Shown one piece after another: positions 934 to 28,669 of a stretch of 48,056 nucleotides of DNA. Origin of the DNA: Akkermansiaceae bacterium (GTDB lineage Bacteria > Verrucomicrobiota > Verrucomicrobiia > Verrucomicrobiales > Akkermansiaceae). Position 1 is the stretch's first letter, and each line of letters begins with the position of its first letter. The stretch is from the NCBI GenBank assembly GCA_025362955.1, contig JANYFB010000114.1:1-48056 (forward strand), written 5' to 3'. The position numbers and the translations under genes are program-made. Under the pieces are notes generated by a model. The model made no database searches. It was not told where the DNA came from and was given only the letters and a program-made list of their open reading frames with translations.

Positions 934-3078
934 CTATTGCTCGACCGTTTGGATGATTTCTCGGTAAACCTCCACCTCGTCCGTCGGCACCCGTTTCAGC
1001 TCCGGGTCTTTATCGAGATCCACGAAATAAAGGCCGAAATCCGTGTTTGGATCGAAGGCGTGGCCCCACTCGCGGTTTGAGGTGATGGACCAAAAGTTAT
1101 ACCCCTTCACGGGCACGCCGTCGGTGATCGCCCGCTCGACTTGGGCGACGTGGGTGCGGAGATATTCCGTCCGAGAAATACCGTTTGCACTCGGCACGCT
1201 GCCATTTTCCACAATGAAAAGTTCCTGCTCCGGAAACCACCGATGGAAACGCCGCAACGCATGGTAGAGACCCTGCGGCCACACCGGAGCGTGGAGGAAA
1301 CGCCCGTGCGCCGCCTCTTCTAACATTCGGTAACACCCAAGCTTCCACGTCGGTAGGCCCCAGTAATAGTCCAGCCCGACGAAGTCCTGTGCCCCCACGG
1401 CCTCCTCCGGGCAAAGCTCCACTGGCAAGCGCCCGGAGGTTCCGAGGTACCACCAGTTTGCGTTCGCGATCATCGTCGTCGTCCCCCAGAATCGCCATGC
1501 CCAGTTGAGCCAACCGACCTTGGTTTCTAGCACTTTCAGCCGGTGGCTTGGCTCTAACGGGACGATTTCGAGGCGATTTTCATCGTGAAAAAGTTCGAAT
1601 GCGATCCGGCGCGCCAAAAGAATTTCCAGGCCCTGATGGGTGCCGGGTTGCGACATTCCTGGAGCGTCGGTCCGGATCCCGACCCGGATTTTTCCCCGGC
1701 GCCGCACTTGTCGGACATCACGGCTTTCCAGCAGGTCGTGGAAATCGTCATCTTTACCAACCAGCACCTCGCGCAGGGAAACGGGCCGGCGCGCCTTTGC
1801 CACCGGTCCGGCAGGCGAAATTCCGGGCGATTCCACGACTGCCATCACTTCTAACTGAAACGCCGCCACGGCTCGGTTTACCCGTCCCAGCAATTGCTCG
1901 TGACCGTGAGGCGCGACTACCACGTATGCCTCATCGCTCAATCCGGTCACCAGGAATCGCAGGCCGTCCGTATTTTGCAGCCCATGGGGAATCAGGAAAA
2001 ATGCGTCGCCATACAGTGCGTCCACGGTGCCAGCCCTAAGCGCGTCACGGCCCTTATCGTAGTCGCTGAAAATTTTCTTTCCGCAACCTCGCGGCAAATC
2101 CCTGTCCCACGAAACCGGCTGATTTCCCACCGCGATCACACCGACTTTTCTACCACCAAGCGAGCCGATTCCCTCCCCCTCGTAGCTGGCTGCCACCAGC
2201 ACCGCCTTGCCCGTGCGCAGGTAGGGATCGCTGATTTCAAAGCGCGTTTGATCGCCATCCGTCACCCCGCCGATCACGAGATCCACGTCGCCTTTTTCGC
2301 TGACCAGAGCGCCGCTGGTGGTGAATTTGAACAAGGCCTCCGTCATGCCCCGGTGGCAGGCGCCCCAATCCATCAGCATTTGCAGCCATGTCGGGAAGCC
2401 AGTGACCATTGGATTCACCCCGACTTTGGCCTCGGGTCGCCGGCCTTGGATCACTGCCCGCGCCCGGGCATTTGCGAGGAAAAGTCCGGGGATCAATTTT
2501 CCCACCGCCTCGGCCTCCGCATCCACGTCCGAGCCACGCGGCAGCCCCGGCGGCATGTAGTAACGGCTCTGCCACCACGGCTTGATGTAGCCAAACGTGA
2601 GCTGGCTCGGCTCGTTGAAGGTGATCCAGTAGTCCACCAGATCCCCTAACGCCGCAGCCACTTCGTCTGCATATCTCGCGAAAAAATCAGGGAATTTTTC
2701 ACCAATCAAGCCTCCGTGATCGCGCTCCAGCCAGATTGGCCAGACGAAGTGATGCAGCGTGAGCATCACTTTCATCCCATGGCTGCGGACGCACTCCGCC
2801 ACTTTCCGATAATGGGCCAGCGAGTTTGCATCGAAACATCCCTCTGCGGTTTCCACCCGCGCCCAAGCGATCGAAAAGCGGAACAATTTGCAGCCCAGAC
2901 CCGCCGCCGCGGCGATGTCCTCCTCATAGCGATTCCCGAAATCCGTCGCTCTCCCGCGCGGCGTCAGGCCTTGGCAGCGTTCCCAAAGATCCCACACGTC
3001 CTCCCGCGCCGGATCATGGGCCTCCACCTGATGATCGGCATTCGCCGTGCCGAAAAGAAATCCCTTTGGAAAAGCCAT
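934..3078 (-). CDS. Glycoside hydrolase family 1 (beta-glucosidase-like) with an internal family-3 solute-binding-protein domain
   Basis: GH1 N-part (FLFGTANADHQVE..., acid/base motif TFNEP) and C-part (DFVGLDYYWG, nucleophile motif FIVENG, GYNFWSITSNREW); the middle about 260 aa is SBP_bac_3-like; start chosen at MAFPKGF. Confidence 0.85.
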   Translation of the reverse strand: MAFPKGFLFGTANADHQVEAHDPAREDVWDLWERCQGLTPRGRATDFGNRYEEDIAAAAGLGCKLFRFSIAWARVETAEGCFDANSLAHYRKVAECVRSHGMKVMLTLHHFVWPIWLERDHGGLIGEKFPDFFARYADEVAAALGDLVDYWITFNEPSQLTFGYIKPWWQSRYYMPPGLPRGSDVDAEAEAVGKLIPGLFLANARARAVIQGRRPEAKVGVNPMVTGFPTWLQMLMDWGACHRGMTEALFKFTTSGALVSEKGDVDLVIGGVTDGDQTRFEISDPYLRTGKAVLVAASYEGEGIGSLGGRKVGVIAVGNQPVSWDRDLPRGCGKKIFSDYDKGRDALRAGTVDALYGDAFFLIPHGLQNTDGLRFLVTGLSDEAYVVVAPHGHEQLLGRVNRAVAAFQLEVMAVVESPGISPAGPVAKARRPVSLREVLVGKDDDFHDLLESRDVRQVRRRGKIRVGIRTDAPGMSQPGTHQGLEILLARRIAFELFHDENRLEIVPLEPSHRLKVLETKVGWLNWAWRFWGTTTMIANANWWYLGTSGRLPVELCPEEAVGAQDFVGLDYYWGLPTWKLGCYRMLEEAAHGRFLHAPVWPQGLYHALRRFHRWFPEQELFIVENGSVPSANGISRTEYLRTHVAQVERAITDGVPVKGYNFWSITSNREWGHAFDPNTDFGLYFVDLDKDPELKRVPTDEVEVYREIIQTVEQ

Positions 3079-3383
3079 GAATGCACGGCCTTTGCAACCG
3101 TTCGGCGGCGCGGGGTCAAGGTCCATTCACCTGCCATCAAGGAAACGCCGCCTTCTTTTTTGTCAGGGTTTTCGCGACCGTATCCAAAAAAGAAGCCGGC
3201 GGAAATCGAGGTGGGGGGAACTCGATTTGCGCCGACTTTTTTGAATCGGGGGGATTATTTCAAACTCGGGGGGAGTGTTGGTTTGTCACTGTCCGCTCCT
3301 CGGGGGGAAGGGGTGCTCGCGGCGACAGGAAAAGTAATATCCCATTTCCGGCCACATGGATACTACGCGATGACGTTAGATTG

Positions 3384-9164: not shown

Positions 9165-9261
9165 GCCATACTGAGTATGGCATCCCGCGCCACCTGTCGA
9201 GCATTTTTCTCAATTTTCCTCACTTCTTGATTCTTTGAAACCTCCCCATCACTCTCCGCCC

Positions 9262-11757
9262 ATGTCTGAGCCAGCACTCACGCCGATGATGGCCCAATAC
9301 CAATCCATGCGACGCTCCTTGCCCGCCGACATCATCCTGTTTTACCGGCTCGGCGACTTTTACGAAATGTTCTTTGACGACGCGAAAGCCGCCTCGCCGA
9401 TCATGAACGTCGCCCTCACCAAGCGCGGCGGCACCCCGATGTGCGGCGTTCCCTATCATGCTGCGCAGGGCTACATCGCGCGCCTGCTCAAGGCGGGAAA
9501 ACGCGTCGCCATCGCCGAGCAAACGTCCGAACCCGTCGCCGGAAAACTCGTCTCCCGCGAGATCGCCCGCATCCTTACCCCGGGCTCCATCGATGACGAA
9601 GCGCTCCTCGACAACCAGCGCCCGAACTACCTCGCCGCCGTCTGCCGCCACGGGAAATCCGCCGGCCTTGCGTGTGTGGACCACACCACCGGCGAGTTCA
9701 CCATCGCTGAATTTTCCGATCTCGGTCTGCTGGAAGACGAACTCGCCCGCATCGCCCCGTCGGAACTGCTCATTCCTGACCACCAGACCGCCGAGTTTGG
9801 AAAATTGGCGAACTGTCTTGTTTACGAAGGCTACACCTTTCTCCCCGAGCACGCCACCCAGCTCCTCAAGGATCATTTCAACGTCCACTCGTTAGACGGC
9901 TTTGGTTGCGCGAATCTCCATGCCGCCAGCGGTGCCGCCGGAGGAGTCCTCCACTACCTCATCCACCAACTCCGCCGACCCTGCGGACACCTCCACCCGC
10001 CGCATGTTAGGGAAAGTGCCGATCACGTCCTGATCGACGCCGCTTCCCAGCGCAACCTCGACCTTGTGGATTCCCGCTCGGGAAAGGCCCACACCCTGTT
10101 AGGAGTTCTCGACCGCACCGCCACCCCGATGGGCGCACGCCTGCTCCGCGACTGGATTCTTCATCCTCTGCGTGACCTCAATACTCTAACTGCCCGTCAG
10201 GATCTCATCGCTGCCTTTCTAGCAGAACCTTATATCCTCTCAAAATGCCGCGAGTCCCTCAAAGGCATTCGTGATATCGAGCGCACCACTTCCCGCCTGT
10301 CCCAAGGCTCGGGAAATGCCCGAGACCTCCAGTCCCTTTCCATCTCCCTCTCTCAAATTCCCACGCTCAGGCAGGACCTGTCCTCCCTCTTCCAATCTTC
10401 AATCAACAATCTTCAATCATCAATCCTCCCCCGCCTCCACGAGTTCCAGGAACTCACACAAATGCTAACCGCCGCCCTAACCGACGAACCGCCGTCCCAC
10501 CTCCGCGACGGGGGCGTCATCCGCGATGGCTGGTCACCCGCACTTGACGAACTTCGCAACGCCTCGCGCGGCGGCAAGGACTGGATCGCCCGCTTGCAAG
10601 AGGACGAACGCAAACGCACCGGCATCGACTCGTTGAAAATCAAATTCAACAATGTCTTTGGTTACTTCATCGAGATCACCACCAGCCATCTCGCCAAAGT
10701 ACCGGACGACTACACCCGCAAGCAAACCATGTCCAACGCCGAGCGCTACATCACCCCCGCGCTCAAGGAAATGGAAAACAAAGTCCTTGGTGCCGAGGAG
10801 CGTTCCAAGCAGTTAGAAAATGAACTTTTTCTCGAACTCCGCGCCCGCGTCGTCACCCACCTGCCCACGCTCCAAGAAACCGCTGCCGCCGTCGCGGAAA
10901 TCGACGTGTTATGCGCCCTCTCCGAAGTCGCCCAATACCACCGCCACTGCCGCCCGCTCCTCAATCACGAAAGAGGCTTCTTCGTCACTAACGGTCGCCA
11001 TCCGGTGTTAGAACAAACCCTAACTGACGTTAAGTTCGTCCCCAACGACACCGAACTTGATCCCGATACCGCCCGCCTCCAAATTCTAACCGGCCCAAAT
11101 ATGGCCGGCAAATCCACCTACATCCGCCAAATTGCGCTCATCGCCGTCATGGCGCAGATCGGTGCCTTCGTCCCTGCCGAGTCCGCTACTTTAGGTCTAG
11201 TAGATCGCATCTTCTGTCGCGTCGGCGCGTCCGACGATCTCTCACGCGGCCAATCCACCTTCATGGTCGAAATGAGCGAGACCGCCCTCATCCTCAACCA
11301 CGCGACTGATCGATCACTCGTCATCCTCGACGAAATCGGCCGCGGCACCGCCACCTTCGACGGTCTCTCCATTGCCTGGGCCGTCGCCGAGCATTTGCAC
11401 GACAGTATCGGCTGCCGCACCCTGTTCGCCACGCACTACCACGAGCTAACGGATCTCGCGAATACCCGTCCTGCTGTGGCCAACTACAACGTCGCCGTGA
11501 GAGAGTGGAACGAGGAAATCATTTTCCTCCACAAAATCCTACCCGGTGCCGCGGACAAATCTTACGGCATCCAAGTCGCGCGTCTAGCAGGCCTGCCAAA
11601 ACCTGTCGTCGAGCGCGCCAAATCCATCCTCTCCCACCTCGAACTCCACTCCGTGAAACCCGAGGCCAAAACCCAAGGCCCCAAAGCCAAAAACACCAAC
11701 CAGCCTTCACTGCCGCAACCCAACGCGCCGCAGATGGACCTGTTCTCCGAGTTCTAA
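9262..11757 (+). CDS. mutS: DNA mismatch repair protein MutS
   Basis: TPMMAQYQSMRRSLPADIILFYRLGDFYEMFFDDA...; Walker A GPNMAGKSTYIRQ, DEIGRGTATFDGLSIAWA, FATHYHEL. Confidence 0.95.
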   Translation: MSEPALTPMMAQYQSMRRSLPADIILFYRLGDFYEMFFDDAKAASPIMNVALTKRGGTPMCGVPYHAAQGYIARLLKAGKRVAIAEQTSEPVAGKLVSREIARILTPGSIDDEALLDNQRPNYLAAVCRHGKSAGLACVDHTTGEFTIAEFSDLGLLEDELARIAPSELLIPDHQTAEFGKLANCLVYEGYTFLPEHATQLLKDHFNVHSLDGFGCANLHAASGAAGGVLHYLIHQLRRPCGHLHPPHVRESADHVLIDAASQRNLDLVDSRSGKAHTLLGVLDRTATPMGARLLRDWILHPLRDLNTLTARQDLIAAFLAEPYILSKCRESLKGIRDIERTTSRLSQGSGNARDLQSLSISLSQIPTLRQDLSSLFQSSINNLQSSILPRLHEFQELTQMLTAALTDEPPSHLRDGGVIRDGWSPALDELRNASRGGKDWIARLQEDERKRTGIDSLKIKFNNVFGYFIEITTSHLAKVPDDYTRKQTMSNAERYITPALKEMENKVLGAEERSKQLENELFLELRARVVTHLPTLQETAAAVAEIDVLCALSEVAQYHRHCRPLLNHERGFFVTNGRHPVLEQTLTDVKFVPNDTELDPDTARLQILTGPNMAGKSTYIRQIALIAVMAQIGAFVPAESATLGLVDRIFCRVGASDDLSRGQSTFMVEMSETALILNHATDRSLVILDEIGRGTATFDGLSIAWAVAEHLHDSIGCRTLFATHYHELTDLANTRPAVANYNVAVREWNEEIIFLHKILPGAADKSYGIQVARLAGLPKPVVERAKSILSHLELHSVKPEAKTQGPKAKNTNQPSLPQPNAPQMDLFSEF

Positions 11758-11913: not shown

Positions 11914-13815
11914 GTGTGTTTTAAAACCCTTTTGCTATCGTTGGCCATCGCAGCATCCGCGCCCGCCAGGCCGTGGAGTGACGATGTGATGTATTTCGCA
12001 CTGACCGACCGGTTCTGCGATGGGGATTTAACTAACAACATCCCTCCCGGCTGCGATCCGTCGCTCTACGATGCCTCGCAGGAAAACATCAATCTCTATC
12101 AGGGCGGCGATTTGCGTGGTATCGAAAACGCGCTCCAAGCGGGCTATTTCAACGATCTCGGAGTGACCGCGCTATGGCTTTCGCCCGTGGTGCGGAATGT
12201 CTGGCGTTCCGGCTATGATTCGGGCGGCTGGAAGACAGGCTATCATGGCTACTGGGCGCAGGATTGGCTCGACATCGACCCACATCTCACCAGTGCCTTC
12301 TCTCTAACCGGCGCACCCTATTCAAATGATGCGGAGGGTCGGATGGAGCATTACCGGGACTTGGTGAGACTGGCTCACGCCAAGGGCATTAAGGTGATTC
12401 AGGATGTGGTGCTGAACCATGCCGGACCGGTGTTTTACTACGATGCGAACGGCGACGGTGTTTTTAATTTGGAAAACAAGGAAGAATGGGTGCAGCCATT
12501 CAAAAAGGACGGCTTCTACGCGAACACAAAATGGGCGGACGTCCCGAAATGGAATGCGGAAAAAACCCAACCCGACGGACCACGCGAAATGTTAGGTGTG
12601 AGAATTGCCACCAAAGGCACGCTTTCACAGCTCGCCAGCTATGGCCGCAAGGGTTATTCCCAAGACAGCCTCGGCAAGTCGGATGGGGAGGAAGTCACCT
12701 GCGATTTCTTCTCGCTGCGGGATTTCTGGACGGACCCGAAAGGCGAATACTTCGACGCGCTGGTGGACGAGTTCGTGGAAATCTATCAATTCTATCTAAA
12801 CACGGCTGGCGTGGATGGTCTGCGGATCGATACGATGAAGCATGTGCACCCCGGATTTTGGGATGCTTTCACGGCACGCTTGAGAAAACGGCTGGGTGAC
12901 GCAGCCGCAGAGAAAATCCTTTTCGGCGAGGTCTATGATGGGAATCCGGCGCGACTCGGCCAATACACTTGGCGTTCCGACTGGGCGCAACACCCGGAAC
13001 CAGCGCTGGACTCCGTGCTGGATTTCAATTTCTGCTTCAATGCCCGCGAGTATCTCCGGCATCCGGGAAGTCAGTTTGGTTCCCCGGCGGCACTCGAAAA
13101 ATCCCTGCTAACACGTACCGGAGCGGATGAAAGCCACCACCCATTTTACAACCCAAATCCCGGCGCGGACGGGTTGAACTCGCAGCAGAAAATCATTACA
13201 TTTATCGAGAATCATGATGGCCTCAACCGTTTCCGCGTCGCGGGAATCACCGAGCAGCGAAACCGTCTCGCCCAAGCTTTGGTGATGACCTTGCCGGGAA
13301 TTCCCTGCCTCTATTATGGCACGGAATTTGATCTGCTAGATAGCCAAGGGAAAACCGGCGAGGACGGCGAGACGGGACGGATGATGTTTTATCGTGACCG
13401 TGGCGGGCCTACGATGAAGGATGTAAAATCCTGCCCGGCATTTTCCGAAATTTCCCGCCTCGCAGGCCTCCGTGCCAAGCTGCCAGAGCTGAGGACCGGC
13501 AGGCTGATTCCGTTATGGGTGGACAACGCATCGAGTGCCGAGGATGACGGTGTCTTCGCATTCGCACGCGCCTCGGAAGACGGGGAGTCCTTCGCCGTGG
13601 TCGTGGTGAACGCTTCCGACTCGGAGCGGGTGACTTCCGATGGAGCGGATCAAATTCACCTGCCCGCAAGTTTGAAAACGGCGGGAAAAATACTCCGACC
13701 CGTTCTAACGACGGGCATGGGTAAAGCGCCGCCGGATTTTGCGGCGGACGGTCCGTTGCGGCTCCCAGTGCCGGCATCCAGTCTGGTGGTTTACAAAGGA
13801 ACCCGCGCGGAATAA
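11914..13815 (+). CDS. Secreted alpha-amylase family protein (GH13)
   Basis: Signal peptide; YFALTDRFCDGD, VIQDVVLNHAG, GLRIDTMKHV, ILFGEVYDG, FIENHDGLNRF motifs; likely GTG start. Confidence 0.88.
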   Translation: MCFKTLLLSLAIAASAPARPWSDDVMYFALTDRFCDGDLTNNIPPGCDPSLYDASQENINLYQGGDLRGIENALQAGYFNDLGVTALWLSPVVRNVWRSGYDSGGWKTGYHGYWAQDWLDIDPHLTSAFSLTGAPYSNDAEGRMEHYRDLVRLAHAKGIKVIQDVVLNHAGPVFYYDANGDGVFNLENKEEWVQPFKKDGFYANTKWADVPKWNAEKTQPDGPREMLGVRIATKGTLSQLASYGRKGYSQDSLGKSDGEEVTCDFFSLRDFWTDPKGEYFDALVDEFVEIYQFYLNTAGVDGLRIDTMKHVHPGFWDAFTARLRKRLGDAAAEKILFGEVYDGNPARLGQYTWRSDWAQHPEPALDSVLDFNFCFNAREYLRHPGSQFGSPAALEKSLLTRTGADESHHPFYNPNPGADGLNSQQKIITFIENHDGLNRFRVAGITEQRNRLAQALVMTLPGIPCLYYGTEFDLLDSQGKTGEDGETGRMMFYRDRGGPTMKDVKSCPAFSEISRLAGLRAKLPELRTGRLIPLWVDNASSAEDDGVFAFARASEDGESFAVVVVNASDSERVTSDGADQIHLPASLKTAGKILRPVLTTGMGKAPPDFAADGPLRLPVPASSLVVYKGTRAE

Positions 13816-24779: not shown

Positions 24780-26141
24780 TTAGATGGAAGAAAGGCGGCC
24801 GGTGCTATCACCGAAGCGGCTGAGGGCGGGGACGCCCATTTGGTCGAGCATGTTCAAGTAGAGATTGCACATGGGAGTCGCCGGAGTTTCCAGGTAACGC
24901 CCCGTATTGAAGGTGCCACCCCCATTTCCGGCGAGAACGACGGGGAGATTGGCATGGGTGTGACGATTTCCATCTGAATTCCCGCAACCGTAAACGATCA
25001 TGGAATTGTGCAGGATCGACTTGCCGTCGGCATCATGTTTCGCCTCTAACAAAGTGAGGAACTCCGCAAATCGGTCCGCATAGAACCGGTCAATCAACGC
25101 CACTTTCTGAATGAGATCCGCTTGGTCGCGATGGTGCGAGAGGATGTGGTGGCCCTCCGCAATCTCGATTTCCGGGAAAGGGCGGTTGCTTCCGTCATGG
25201 GCAAGTAACAGCGAGGCGACGCGGGTGGAATCGGTTTCAAATGCCAAGGCGAGCATTTGAAACATCACGCGGATGTATTCATCGTAGGCTTTGGGAATGC
25301 CATCGGGAGTCGGCATGTTAGGGTCGGGAACATCGGTGAAGGTTTCAGCGGTGACGATGCGTTCCTCGATCTCGCGGACACCAGTTAGATACTCATCCAT
25401 TTTCGCCTTGTCGCGATGCGTGAGTTTGCTTTGCACGGATTTCGCGTCGTCCATGACGAAGTCGAGGATCGAGCGTTGCTGAGAGCGGCGCTGGAGAAGG
25501 CTGGCTCCGCGTTCTCCGTGGGCACCCGCTCCAAAGAGGCGCTCGAAGACTTTGCGCGGATTGGATTCCGGAGAGAGCGGTGAGGTGGCTGTGCGCCACG
25601 CGAGGTTGGATTCGTAGGCGCAGGAGTAACCGGAATCACAGCTGCCGGATTTCCGGGAGGCGTCGCAGGAAAGTTCGAGCGAGGAAAAGCGGGTGAGCTT
25701 GTCGATCTGTTGCGCGGCAATCTGGTCCACTGAGACGCCTGCGAGGATGTCGCTGCCAGCGGTTTTTTTTACGCGCACACCGGTTAGAAACGTGCCGTTA
25801 GCGCGGGCATGGTCGCCGGCTCCGTCGTTTCCGGCATTCGCATTAAGGTGTTCAAGGCCGGAAATGACCTGGACGCGGTGGCGCAGCGGTTCTAACGGGG
25901 CAAGGGTGTTGCCAAACGCGAAATTTTTGCCACTGCCGACGGGGGTCCAGTTTTTCTGGATCGCTCCATTCGGGAAATACACGAAGGCCATCCGCAGGGG
26001 CGCACCGGAGGCTGTAGTGGCGAATGCGCGAGTACCTGCGGCAGAGGCGCTGCTTGGCAGGAAGGCTTCGAAGGCAGGAAGGGCGAGGCAGGCTCCCATT
26101 CCCCGGAGGAAACCGCGGCGATGTGTGGTGGCGGGATTCAT
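24780..26141 (-). CDS. DUF1552 domain-containing protein
   Basis: HRRGFLRGMGACLALPAFEAFLP Tat-like signal; pairs with the DUF1592-type gene with a 4-nt overlap. Confidence 0.85.
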   Translation of the reverse strand: MNPATTHRRGFLRGMGACLALPAFEAFLPSSASAAGTRAFATTASGAPLRMAFVYFPNGAIQKNWTPVGSGKNFAFGNTLAPLEPLRHRVQVISGLEHLNANAGNDGAGDHARANGTFLTGVRVKKTAGSDILAGVSVDQIAAQQIDKLTRFSSLELSCDASRKSGSCDSGYSCAYESNLAWRTATSPLSPESNPRKVFERLFGAGAHGERGASLLQRRSQQRSILDFVMDDAKSVQSKLTHRDKAKMDEYLTGVREIEERIVTAETFTDVPDPNMPTPDGIPKAYDEYIRVMFQMLALAFETDSTRVASLLLAHDGSNRPFPEIEIAEGHHILSHHRDQADLIQKVALIDRFYADRFAEFLTLLEAKHDADGKSILHNSMIVYGCGNSDGNRHTHANLPVVLAGNGGGTFNTGRYLETPATPMCNLYLNMLDQMGVPALSRFGDSTGRLSSI

Positions 26142-28669
26142 GGTGTGGTGCGGTGACGTTTTTGAAATGCGGGAGACTCGATGATGCCTAGGATGAGCGT
26201 GGAAAACTTACCGTTGGACTGTTCCAGATTTTCCACGACGGCATCCACCGTGGGAATATCGCAGGGTTCCGGCCCGCGCCCAAGGGCGTAGGTGAAAAGT
26301 TTTTCCGTGAGGCATTGGTAATAGTCGCGACGGCGGGCGGTGACGAGGAGATGCTTGAGTTCGCGAACATCGGCGAAAGGCTCGCCGGTGATGAGTTTGC
26401 CCGCGACGGGTTCGAGAGGGATTCCCTGATCCTTGTCCCGCCAGGAGCCCATTGCGTTGAAATTTTCAAGAGCCAAACCGAGTGGATCCATGCGGTTGTG
26501 GCAAGATGAGCAGAGCGGTTGTTCGCGGTGGAGAGCGAGAGCCTCGCGGAGGGTAAGATTGCCGCCATCATGGTTTTTTTCCGATGCTTCCAACGATGGA
26601 ATGTTAGGCGGGGGCGGTGGCGGCGGAGTGCCGAGGATGTTGTCCAAGATGAAAAGCCCCCGCTTTACCGGAGAGGTTCGAGTGGGATTGGAAGTCACTG
26701 CGAGGACAGTGCCCATGGTGAGCACGCCGCCGCGCGGGCTGTCCGGCGGGAGTTTGACAAGCCGCATTTCTTTCCCGGAAACATCGGGCACACCGTAGTG
26801 TTTGGCCAGTTCCTCATTAAGATAGGTAAAGTCGTTTTCGAGTAATTCTAACACGCTGCGATCATCGCGTAAGAGATGGCGGAACATCATTTCCGCCTCG
26901 CGCCGCATAGCGTTGCGGAGGGAGGCGCTGAACTCGATGCGTTTGCCGTTGTTTCCAAATTTCGCGCGGAATTCGGCCATCTCTTTACGCAGCGACTCTA
27001 GTTTCACCGTGTCATGGGCTTTCTCGGCGGCGTCGATGGATTGGTTGAGTCGTTGCCGCAGTTGAAATCTTCCCTGCATGTCCTTCTCCTGACCGGAATC
27101 CCGGGCGAGGACGATCCGGGCATCAATGCTCACGCTTTCAACATCGCGCGTCTGAAGCCATTGACCGGCGAAGTTTCTCACGAACTCGCCGGAGCGGTCA
27201 TCCGCAAGCATCCGCGCGACTTGAGTGGATAGATTTTGCCGGAGTTCGCCCCGTTCTGCTAGCTGATAGAGAGTTTCGTCGGGCATGGTGGACCACAGAA
27301 AATAGGAAAGCCGGGACGCAAGAGCATATTCGTCTAACAACGGATGGGCCTTGGGATCGTTTTCCGGCAGGGTCTCTTCCATGCGAAAGAGGAACCGAGG
27401 CGAGGCGAGCACCGCCGTGATGGCCTTGCCGATGCCATGCGGGAAGGTGCCGCCAGGCGGCGCGGCCGAGGCGAGGGCAAGCGAGGTGAGTTTCGTGATT
27501 GTCGCTTCGTCCACTGGGCGGCGGAAGGCCCGTGTCGTAAAACGCCGCAAAATTTCTGCGGCGTAGCGCGCCTGTTCCGCCGGGTCCGCCGGAACATCCT
27601 CGCGGGAAAAAAAGCGGCTATAATTTTCCGGATGTCTCGCATAGGCGGATTCTAACGGACCGATCAACGTCACCCCATCCAATTTCAAATCCACGTTGGG
27701 AGCGCCGTCGCCGGGTTTCTCCGCAGGCTTTTGGTCCTTGCCCACCAGTGGCTCCAGGGTCAGCCGCACCGGGTAACTTCCCGCCGCCCACTTGACCTCA
27801 ACGGAGGGTTTCACCGCGAGGAAATCAAACCATTTCAGCTCCTGTCGCGCGACCTCCTTGCCATCAACCGACCATGTAAAATTCGCACGGCCGGGATCAT
27901 AGGCGAACGAGCCATGGACGCTGGAGTTGAGCACGACCCGATAGGTTCCTGGCTCGGTGATTTTCAACGTGGCCGTTAAGTCTGCGGCGTCATAAAGCGA
28001 TAACCGGTCTCGTCCGGAGCCATTTCCAGAAAATTGCTCGGTTGGAAGCGTGCGCTCCGGGGTCACGCGGCTTTCCATCGGCACCGCCTTGGCGACGATG
28101 GTTTCCGCCGCCTGCATGTATTTTTCCAGCAGTAGAGGCGAGGTTGTCAACGCGTCGGCGATGGTGTCGAAACCGTAGCCCGTGTCGTCCGCCGGAAATT
28201 CCTCGTCCGTGCGGAACTCGGTGCCCATTAGATCGCGGATGGTATTCTGGTATTCCACGCGGTTCAGGCGGTGCAGTGTGACGCGACCGGGATCGGGATA
28301 TTGCGGGTCAAGCTTGAGCGGGCCGCGCTTGATCCACTCGGCCAGTGTGGAAAGTTCCTGGGACGTCAGACGTTCCTTTTTTGCGGGCGGCATCAGTCCC
28401 GAGCGGACATTTTTCAGCGCGTGGACCCAGAGATCCGTTTGGTCCATCATGGCCGCAGTCGAGCCAAAGCTGTCAAAACTGACCTTACCCTTGTGTTCGC
28501 CGTCGCCATGGCAGTCGTAACAATGATCTTCGATAATAGGCAGAATTTCCTTCTCGAACCTTGCCGCTTGGTCCGTCTCCGCGTGGCCCGTTCGATACAA
28601 AACTATCGAGCAAAGGCCGCAGAAAACCCGCGTTCGCCAGAGGAGTGAGTAAGAAAAAAACGGGCGCAT
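26138..28669 (-). CDS. DUF1592/DUF1588/DUF1587/DUF1595/DUF1585 multi-domain protein with planctomycete-type cytochrome c motif
   Basis: HCYDCHGDGEHKGKVSFDSF CxxCH; ...LHRLNRVEYQNTIRDLMG; CSSCHNRMDPLGLALENFNAMG. Confidence 0.87.
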   Translation of the reverse strand: MRPFFSYSLLWRTRVFCGLCSIVLYRTGHAETDQAARFEKEILPIIEDHCYDCHGDGEHKGKVSFDSFGSTAAMMDQTDLWVHALKNVRSGLMPPAKKERLTSQELSTLAEWIKRGPLKLDPQYPDPGRVTLHRLNRVEYQNTIRDLMGTEFRTDEEFPADDTGYGFDTIADALTTSPLLLEKYMQAAETIVAKAVPMESRVTPERTLPTEQFSGNGSGRDRLSLYDAADLTATLKITEPGTYRVVLNSSVHGSFAYDPGRANFTWSVDGKEVARQELKWFDFLAVKPSVEVKWAAGSYPVRLTLEPLVGKDQKPAEKPGDGAPNVDLKLDGVTLIGPLESAYARHPENYSRFFSREDVPADPAEQARYAAEILRRFTTRAFRRPVDEATITKLTSLALASAAPPGGTFPHGIGKAITAVLASPRFLFRMEETLPENDPKAHPLLDEYALASRLSYFLWSTMPDETLYQLAERGELRQNLSTQVARMLADDRSGEFVRNFAGQWLQTRDVESVSIDARIVLARDSGQEKDMQGRFQLRQRLNQSIDAAEKAHDTVKLESLRKEMAEFRAKFGNNGKRIEFSASLRNAMRREAEMMFRHLLRDDRSVLELLENDFTYLNEELAKHYGVPDVSGKEMRLVKLPPDSPRGGVLTMGTVLAVTSNPTRTSPVKRGLFILDNILGTPPPPPPPNIPSLEASEKNHDGGNLTLREALALHREQPLCSSCHNRMDPLGLALENFNAMGSWRDKDQGIPLEPVAGKLITGEPFADVRELKHLLVTARRRDYYQCLTEKLFTYALGRGPEPCDIPTVDAVVENLEQSNGKFSTLILGIIESPAFQKRHRTTP

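Follow-up and report, generated by a model that had tools for sequence, protein, structure and literature searches.

Can a bacterial glycosidase carry, within its catalytic barrel, a solute-binding protein (SBP) whose halves stand in reversed order, and if so, what could such a domain be doing there? The question is raised by a single open reading frame on the minus strand (positions 937-3078) of the window, i.e., the whole stretch of 48,056 nucleotides of Akkermansiaceae DNA analyzed here, which encodes a protein of 714 amino acids (P0001). The first-pass annotation had described this gene as a glycoside hydrolase family 1 (GH1) enzyme with a circularly permuted family 3 SBP inserted in the barrel. 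Its coordinates are correct, the gene lying on the minus strand, and the residue numbers that it gave for the insert (276-535) correspond to 260-519 in the 714-residue numbering used here, because they were counted from an alternative in-frame ATG at 3126, which adds 16 residues and yields a protein of 730 amino acids. Genomes of the same genus contain stop-free, full-length homologues of the 714-residue protein, with 63-81% identity over the whole length. The close relatives of the genome from which the window derives are Akkermansiaceae/Verrucomicrobiaceae (e.g., Luteolibacter and Haloferula), and the gene is the sole GH1 gene detected in that genome. Its parts, in the order of the protein and with positions of the window, are the following:

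937-3078, minus strand: GH1 protein with permuted SBP insert; uninterrupted frame from the ATG at 3078 to the stop codon at 934-936
2395-3078, minus strand: GH1 N-terminal part, residues 1-228 (beta1-beta5), with the presumed acid/base E156 in TFNEP (PF00232 over residues 2-223; PDB 4r27 and others)
2302-2394, minus strand: extra helical segment before the insert, residues 229-259 (AlphaFold2 helices 230-240 and 243-254)
1834-2301, minus strand: C-terminal part of the SBP, which comes first, residues 260-415 (matching residues 125-275 of the L098 SBP and 67-221 of AncQR; AlphaFold2)
1930-2217, minus strand: lobe 2 of the SBP, about residues 288-383 (from the alignment; deleted in L045, L046 and L047)
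1726-1833, minus strand: linker between the native C-terminus and the native N-terminus of the SBP, residues 416-451 (about 36 residues; in large part at a pLDDT below 50)
1519-1725, minus strand: N-terminal part of the SBP, which comes second, residues 452-520 (matching residues 68-124 of the L098 SBP and 8-47 of AncQR)
937-1518, minus strand: GH1 C-terminal part, residues 521-714 (alpha5 and beta6-beta8), with the presumed nucleophile E624 in VENG and E670 in NREW

With respect to the enzyme, the GH1 identity seen in the first reading is borne out, with the Pfam family Glyco_hydro_1 (PF00232) matching in two stretches at 176.8 bits (E = 6.8e-52), far above the gathering score of 22.6 bits; the second stretch covers window positions 946-1284, within the GH1 C-terminal part. 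The AlphaFold2 model has the (beta/alpha)8 fold and matches GH1 structures (TM 0.71 to 4r27, by target length), and in Foldseek the whole-protein model aligns with these structures with the insert showing as a gap. Outside the insert, the protein has the fold, the acid/base and nucleophile, Q17 and the NREW Glu in common with the GH1 beta-glycosidases 4r27 (BGL167), Thermotoga BglA, and Gan1D, whereas the beta5-alpha5 loop, longer by approximately 290 residues, sets it apart from all of them. We observe that Q17, H110, N155, E156 (FNEP), E624 (ENG), W663, E670, and W671 are invariant in 26 sequences, and, following established knowledge of GH1, we take E156 to be the acid/base, E624 the nucleophile, and E670 the Glu of the N-x-E-W motif. 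Given the invariance of the catalytic residues, the protein is most likely an active beta-glycosidase. A Glu in the N-x-E-W motif of GH1 enzymes fits a non-phosphorylated glycoside, phospho-glycosidases having a different residue there. The N-terminus, read by eye, shows no signal peptide, in agreement with the earlier claim; GH1 starts at residue 2, and the stretches that homologues carry upstream are short and unconserved, which leaves no space for one.

The reversed order of the SBP halves is visible in several comparisons of the insert. In its native order, with the larger half placed first, the insert of the window protein scores 23.3-25.7 bits against SBP_bac_3 (PF00497), below the Pfam cut-off of 26.4 bits, and only when its halves are re-ordered does the score rise past the cut-off, to 34.4 bits (E = 2e-8), as a single collinear alignment. 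The native-order inserts of some homologues score better against the same family (best E = 3.7e-8), and after re-ordering, 6 of 9 members match it (best E = 7.3e-11). A profile of nine re-ordered inserts is collinear with solved amino-acid-binding proteins (the ancestral protein AncQR, 4zv1, E = 3.8e-26), whereas the native-order profile falls onto AncQR in two swapped pieces (profile 206-242 on chain residues 8-47, and 7-156 on 67-221). Among the unpermuted relatives of the insert that we detected, the closest is an ordinary family 3 SBP from a sister genome (L098:446-1324), of which residues 125-275 are matched by insert residues 8-155 and residues 68-124 by insert residues 208-264. The two halves meet exactly at 124/125 of this ordinary SBP with nothing lost, and the re-ordered insert gives a single merged alignment with it (E = 6e-20). 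Both the swapped halves and the single cut that had been proposed from the letters alone are upheld by these comparisons. A pair of tandem SBP remnants in place of a permutation is ruled out, because the halves complement each other and join at a single residue, with no stretch duplicated or missing. We therefore regard the anatomy, GH1 with an inserted permuted SBP, as settled. Once re-ordered, the insert is matched in both lobes by family 3 SBPs (PF00497; AncQR 4zv1, glutamine-binding protein, Enterococcus 5eyf, and 1xt8), from which it differs in having swapped halves, no signal peptide, and no transporter genes, and in sitting inside an enzyme. In the sister genome, the ordinary SBP gene is followed by apparent permease and ATPase genes (L098:446-2833).

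AlphaFold2, given 26 aligned family members, returned a GH1 barrel with an SBP-like insert (mean pLDDT 78, pTM 0.77), with pLDDT at about 80-90 over the greater part of the SBP and dropping below 50 in a large share of the linker. The insert folded alone reaches a pLDDT of 73 and a pTM of 0.71, and in Foldseek about 155 columns of this model align with glutamine-binding protein and its relatives (E = 3.8e-10), such a match being expected of a sequential aligner applied to a permuted chain. The predicted strands and helices fit a two-lobed SBP fold, except in L045-L047, in which lobe 2 is absent: residues 260-415 run through beta3 (DLVIGG), a hinge strand, lobe 2, the returning hinge strand, and the C-terminal helix, and residues 452-520 through beta1 (RRRGKIRVGI), alpha1, beta2, and alpha2. 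The helical segment at residues 229-259 has no counterpart in insert-less GH1 relatives. Alignment with these relatives, together with the secondary structure of the model, places the insertion site in the beta5-alpha5 loop of the barrel. The beta-alpha loops of a TIM barrel lie on its catalytic face, and the insert is therefore on that face as well. The permutation point is in lobe 1, in the loop between alpha2 and beta3 and away from the hinge, so that the lobes could close without displacing either attachment point, and a coupling through these points is not obvious. Both P432 and S434 of the linker motif P432-x-S434 are invariant in 26 sequences, the ones without lobe 2 included; such invariance in a poorly ordered linker (residues 432-437, window positions about 1768-1785) suggests a linker that is docked onto the barrel.

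Not all members of the family have kept the complete insert. In three homologues (L045:6754-8604, L046:1974-3845, and L047:8001-9860), the alignment shows a gap of about 85-87 residues in place of lobe 2, reaching from one crossing between the lobes to the other; permuted lobe 1 and the linker motif are still present, as is a complete GH1 with an intact active site. The residues kept even without lobe 2 (H393, P432, S434, R461-G462, and E485) belong to lobe 1 and the linker. The tree built from the GH1 parts has well-supported branches that cannot be reconciled with fewer than two changes of lobe 2, and on this basis lobe 2 was deleted independently in at least two lineages. An insert with a single lobe is unable to enclose a ligand, and because lobe 2 is lost while GH1 is intact, the enzyme is not dependent on flytrap closure in those lineages. 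The loss may be read either as a loss of regulation or as a sign of a structural role for lobe 1.

Pairs of related genes gave dN/dS values of about 0.06-0.26 for the C-terminal part of the SBP and mostly 0.03-0.27 for its N-terminal part (with one noisy 0.72 from a very close pair), next to about 0.02-0.16 for GH1. The insert is under purifying selection, and its amino acids change about twice as fast as those of GH1. Within the main clade, conservation amounts to 1.00 for RDLP, 0.84-0.86 for the hinges, 0.83 for the YDxxR segment, and 0.82 for the YGDA segment, compared to an insert mean of 0.70, the assignment of these segments to cleft or hinge being based on the SBP fold. Two further loops expected to line the cleft do not exceed that mean (beta1-alpha1, 0.62; beta2-alpha2, 0.56). 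The conserved cleft-facing loops of the main clade favor a working ligand cleft. As for the nature of the ligand, family 3 SBPs hold the carboxylate of an amino acid with a canonical Arg. In contrast, this Arg is not conserved in the insert, where its position falls on D276 or, with the gaps placed differently, on T278 and the nearby R279 is found in only 16 of 24 sequences, while the Asp of the YGD motif is common to the insert and family 3 SBPs and is invariant in two-lobed members. Because the canonical Arg is unconserved, an ordinary alpha-amino acid would not be the best guess for the ligand. Two Roseibacillus members (L042 and L050) keep lobe 2 and are missing the GNQP and RDLP motifs.

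The ligand-gating interpretation of the insert, already raised in the first-pass annotation, is partly supported by these comparisons. The reading that we prefer, and that we consider to be just short of evenly balanced, is that the protein is a beta-glycosidase of the cytoplasm, regulated through a Venus-flytrap domain that responds to a non-canonical ligand and that some lineages have lost. The enzyme would be a cytoplasmic retaining GH1 beta-glycosidase in which an SBP permuted at the alpha2-beta3 loop sits in the beta5-alpha5 loop on the catalytic face, with lobe 1 and the linker anchored to the barrel. The two-lobed insert would bind a small molecule, probably not a classical alpha-amino acid, via the conserved cleft (GNQP, RDLP, YDxxR, and YGDA), and the opening and closing of lobe 2 may alter access to the GH1 active site or the order of the loops around it. 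Coupling via surface contact with the active-site loops is more plausible than via the attachment points, and lineages without lobe 2 would then be unregulated enzymes. Conserved cleft loops and hinges, purifying selection, insertion in a beta-alpha loop, and the precedent of engineered SBP-enzyme switches speak for regulation, whereas the two lobe 2 losses, the unconserved Arg, the members L042 and L050 without the motifs, the cut in lobe 1, and the lack of linkage to transport genes speak against it.

Many of these observations would also be compatible with an insert that needs no ligand-driven closure and serves, mainly through lobe 1 and the linker, as a structural lid or as a specificity or docking/oligomerization module over the GH1 active site. 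Its position on the catalytic face, the unconserved ligand Arg, and the lobe 1 and linker residues that are kept where lobe 2 is gone all point in this direction; however, the cleft loops of lobe 2 are conserved above the insert mean in the main clade, a feature for which a pure scaffold would have no use, and we consider a purely structural insert rather unlikely.

The distribution of the gene across genomes bears on a further explanation. A scan of named genomes with peptide patterns from the query, which distant relatives would escape, gave 30 loci in Verrucomicrobiota records, and the same permuted insert recurs among homologues, with the full-length fusion present in 40 of 260 Akkermansiaceae genomes (one of them with an in-frame TAG) and full-length copies with both lobes spanning three genera. 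Further copies among the 260 genomes comprise 3 without lobe 2, 5 that are partial, and 2 short C-terminal remnants. Outside the Akkermansiaceae, no full-length fusion and only insert-less GH1 was found in 388 genomes sampled evenly across the phylum. In two sister genomes, only a C-terminal remnant is left (about residues 621-705; L015:1504-1761 and L016:1501-1746), which indicates gene loss. Across 28 loci, we observe no neighbor gene that is conserved beyond close relatives and no ABC permease/ATPase linkage or operon with the fusion gene. Elsewhere in the window, mutS (9235-11757) is directly followed by an alpha-amylase-family gene (11914-13815), and at 24780-28669 a DUF1552 (HXXSHH) gene adjoins a PSD/PSCyt gene (DUF1585/1587/1588/1592/1595 plus cytochrome c), a pairing of families without assigned function.

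Such a patchy distribution, with gene remnants in two genomes, would be expected of a tolerated passenger, i.e., a once-functional or accidental insert that folds autonomously, is kept only because mutations leading to its misfolding harm the enzyme, and is now eroding. The two deletions of lobe 2, the drift of the linker, and the remnants could be taken as signs of such erosion, as could the roughly 2-fold faster amino acid evolution of the insert relative to GH1, but both lobes are kept in the 40 full-length copies from three genera, dN/dS is low, and conservation clusters at the cleft, and we regard a mere passenger as improbable. An assembly or annotation artifact (a chimera or a frameshift join), for which the fragmentation of the source assembly into 352 contigs could be cited, has a negligible probability and is rejected because the same architecture recurs across independent genomes, 40 overall, including complete single-contig genomes (G004, G140, G141, G158, and G182) and named isolates (Luteolibacter marinus, Haloferula, and Roseibacillus).

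Protein engineers routinely build switches by combining circular permutation with domain insertion. Among the engineered SBP-enzyme insertion switches (XynA-XBP chimeras, PMC4896006 and PMC4536891; reviewed in PMC6335823), the xylanase-SBP insertion chimera XynA-XBP271 responds to xylose with an increase in activity of about 3-fold (PMC4896006), which shows that the principle of a ligand switch is feasible. Like the window protein, these chimeras join an SBP and a glycoside hydrolase by insertion; they differ in that the enzyme was inserted into the SBP, whereas the window protein is a candidate switch in which a natural permuted SBP is inserted into the enzyme. Open-access full texts, incompletely covered and therefore weak evidence of novelty, yielded only engineered sensors and switches and no natural precedent. 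That the regulated beta-glycosidase we prefer is in fact a natural ligand-switched enzyme, with a permuted Venus-flytrap sensor in a TIM-barrel glycosidase and desensitized relatives without lobe 2, is a tentative proposal that we hold at somewhat less than even confidence. The two lobe 2-deleted lineages provide a ready-made natural deletion experiment on the role of the inserted sensor. If the proposal is true, evolution would have taken the same route of permutation and insertion as engineers and conserved its product across one bacterial family, and this would be a route by which the fold of a periplasmic nutrient receptor may become a domain of a cytoplasmic enzyme.
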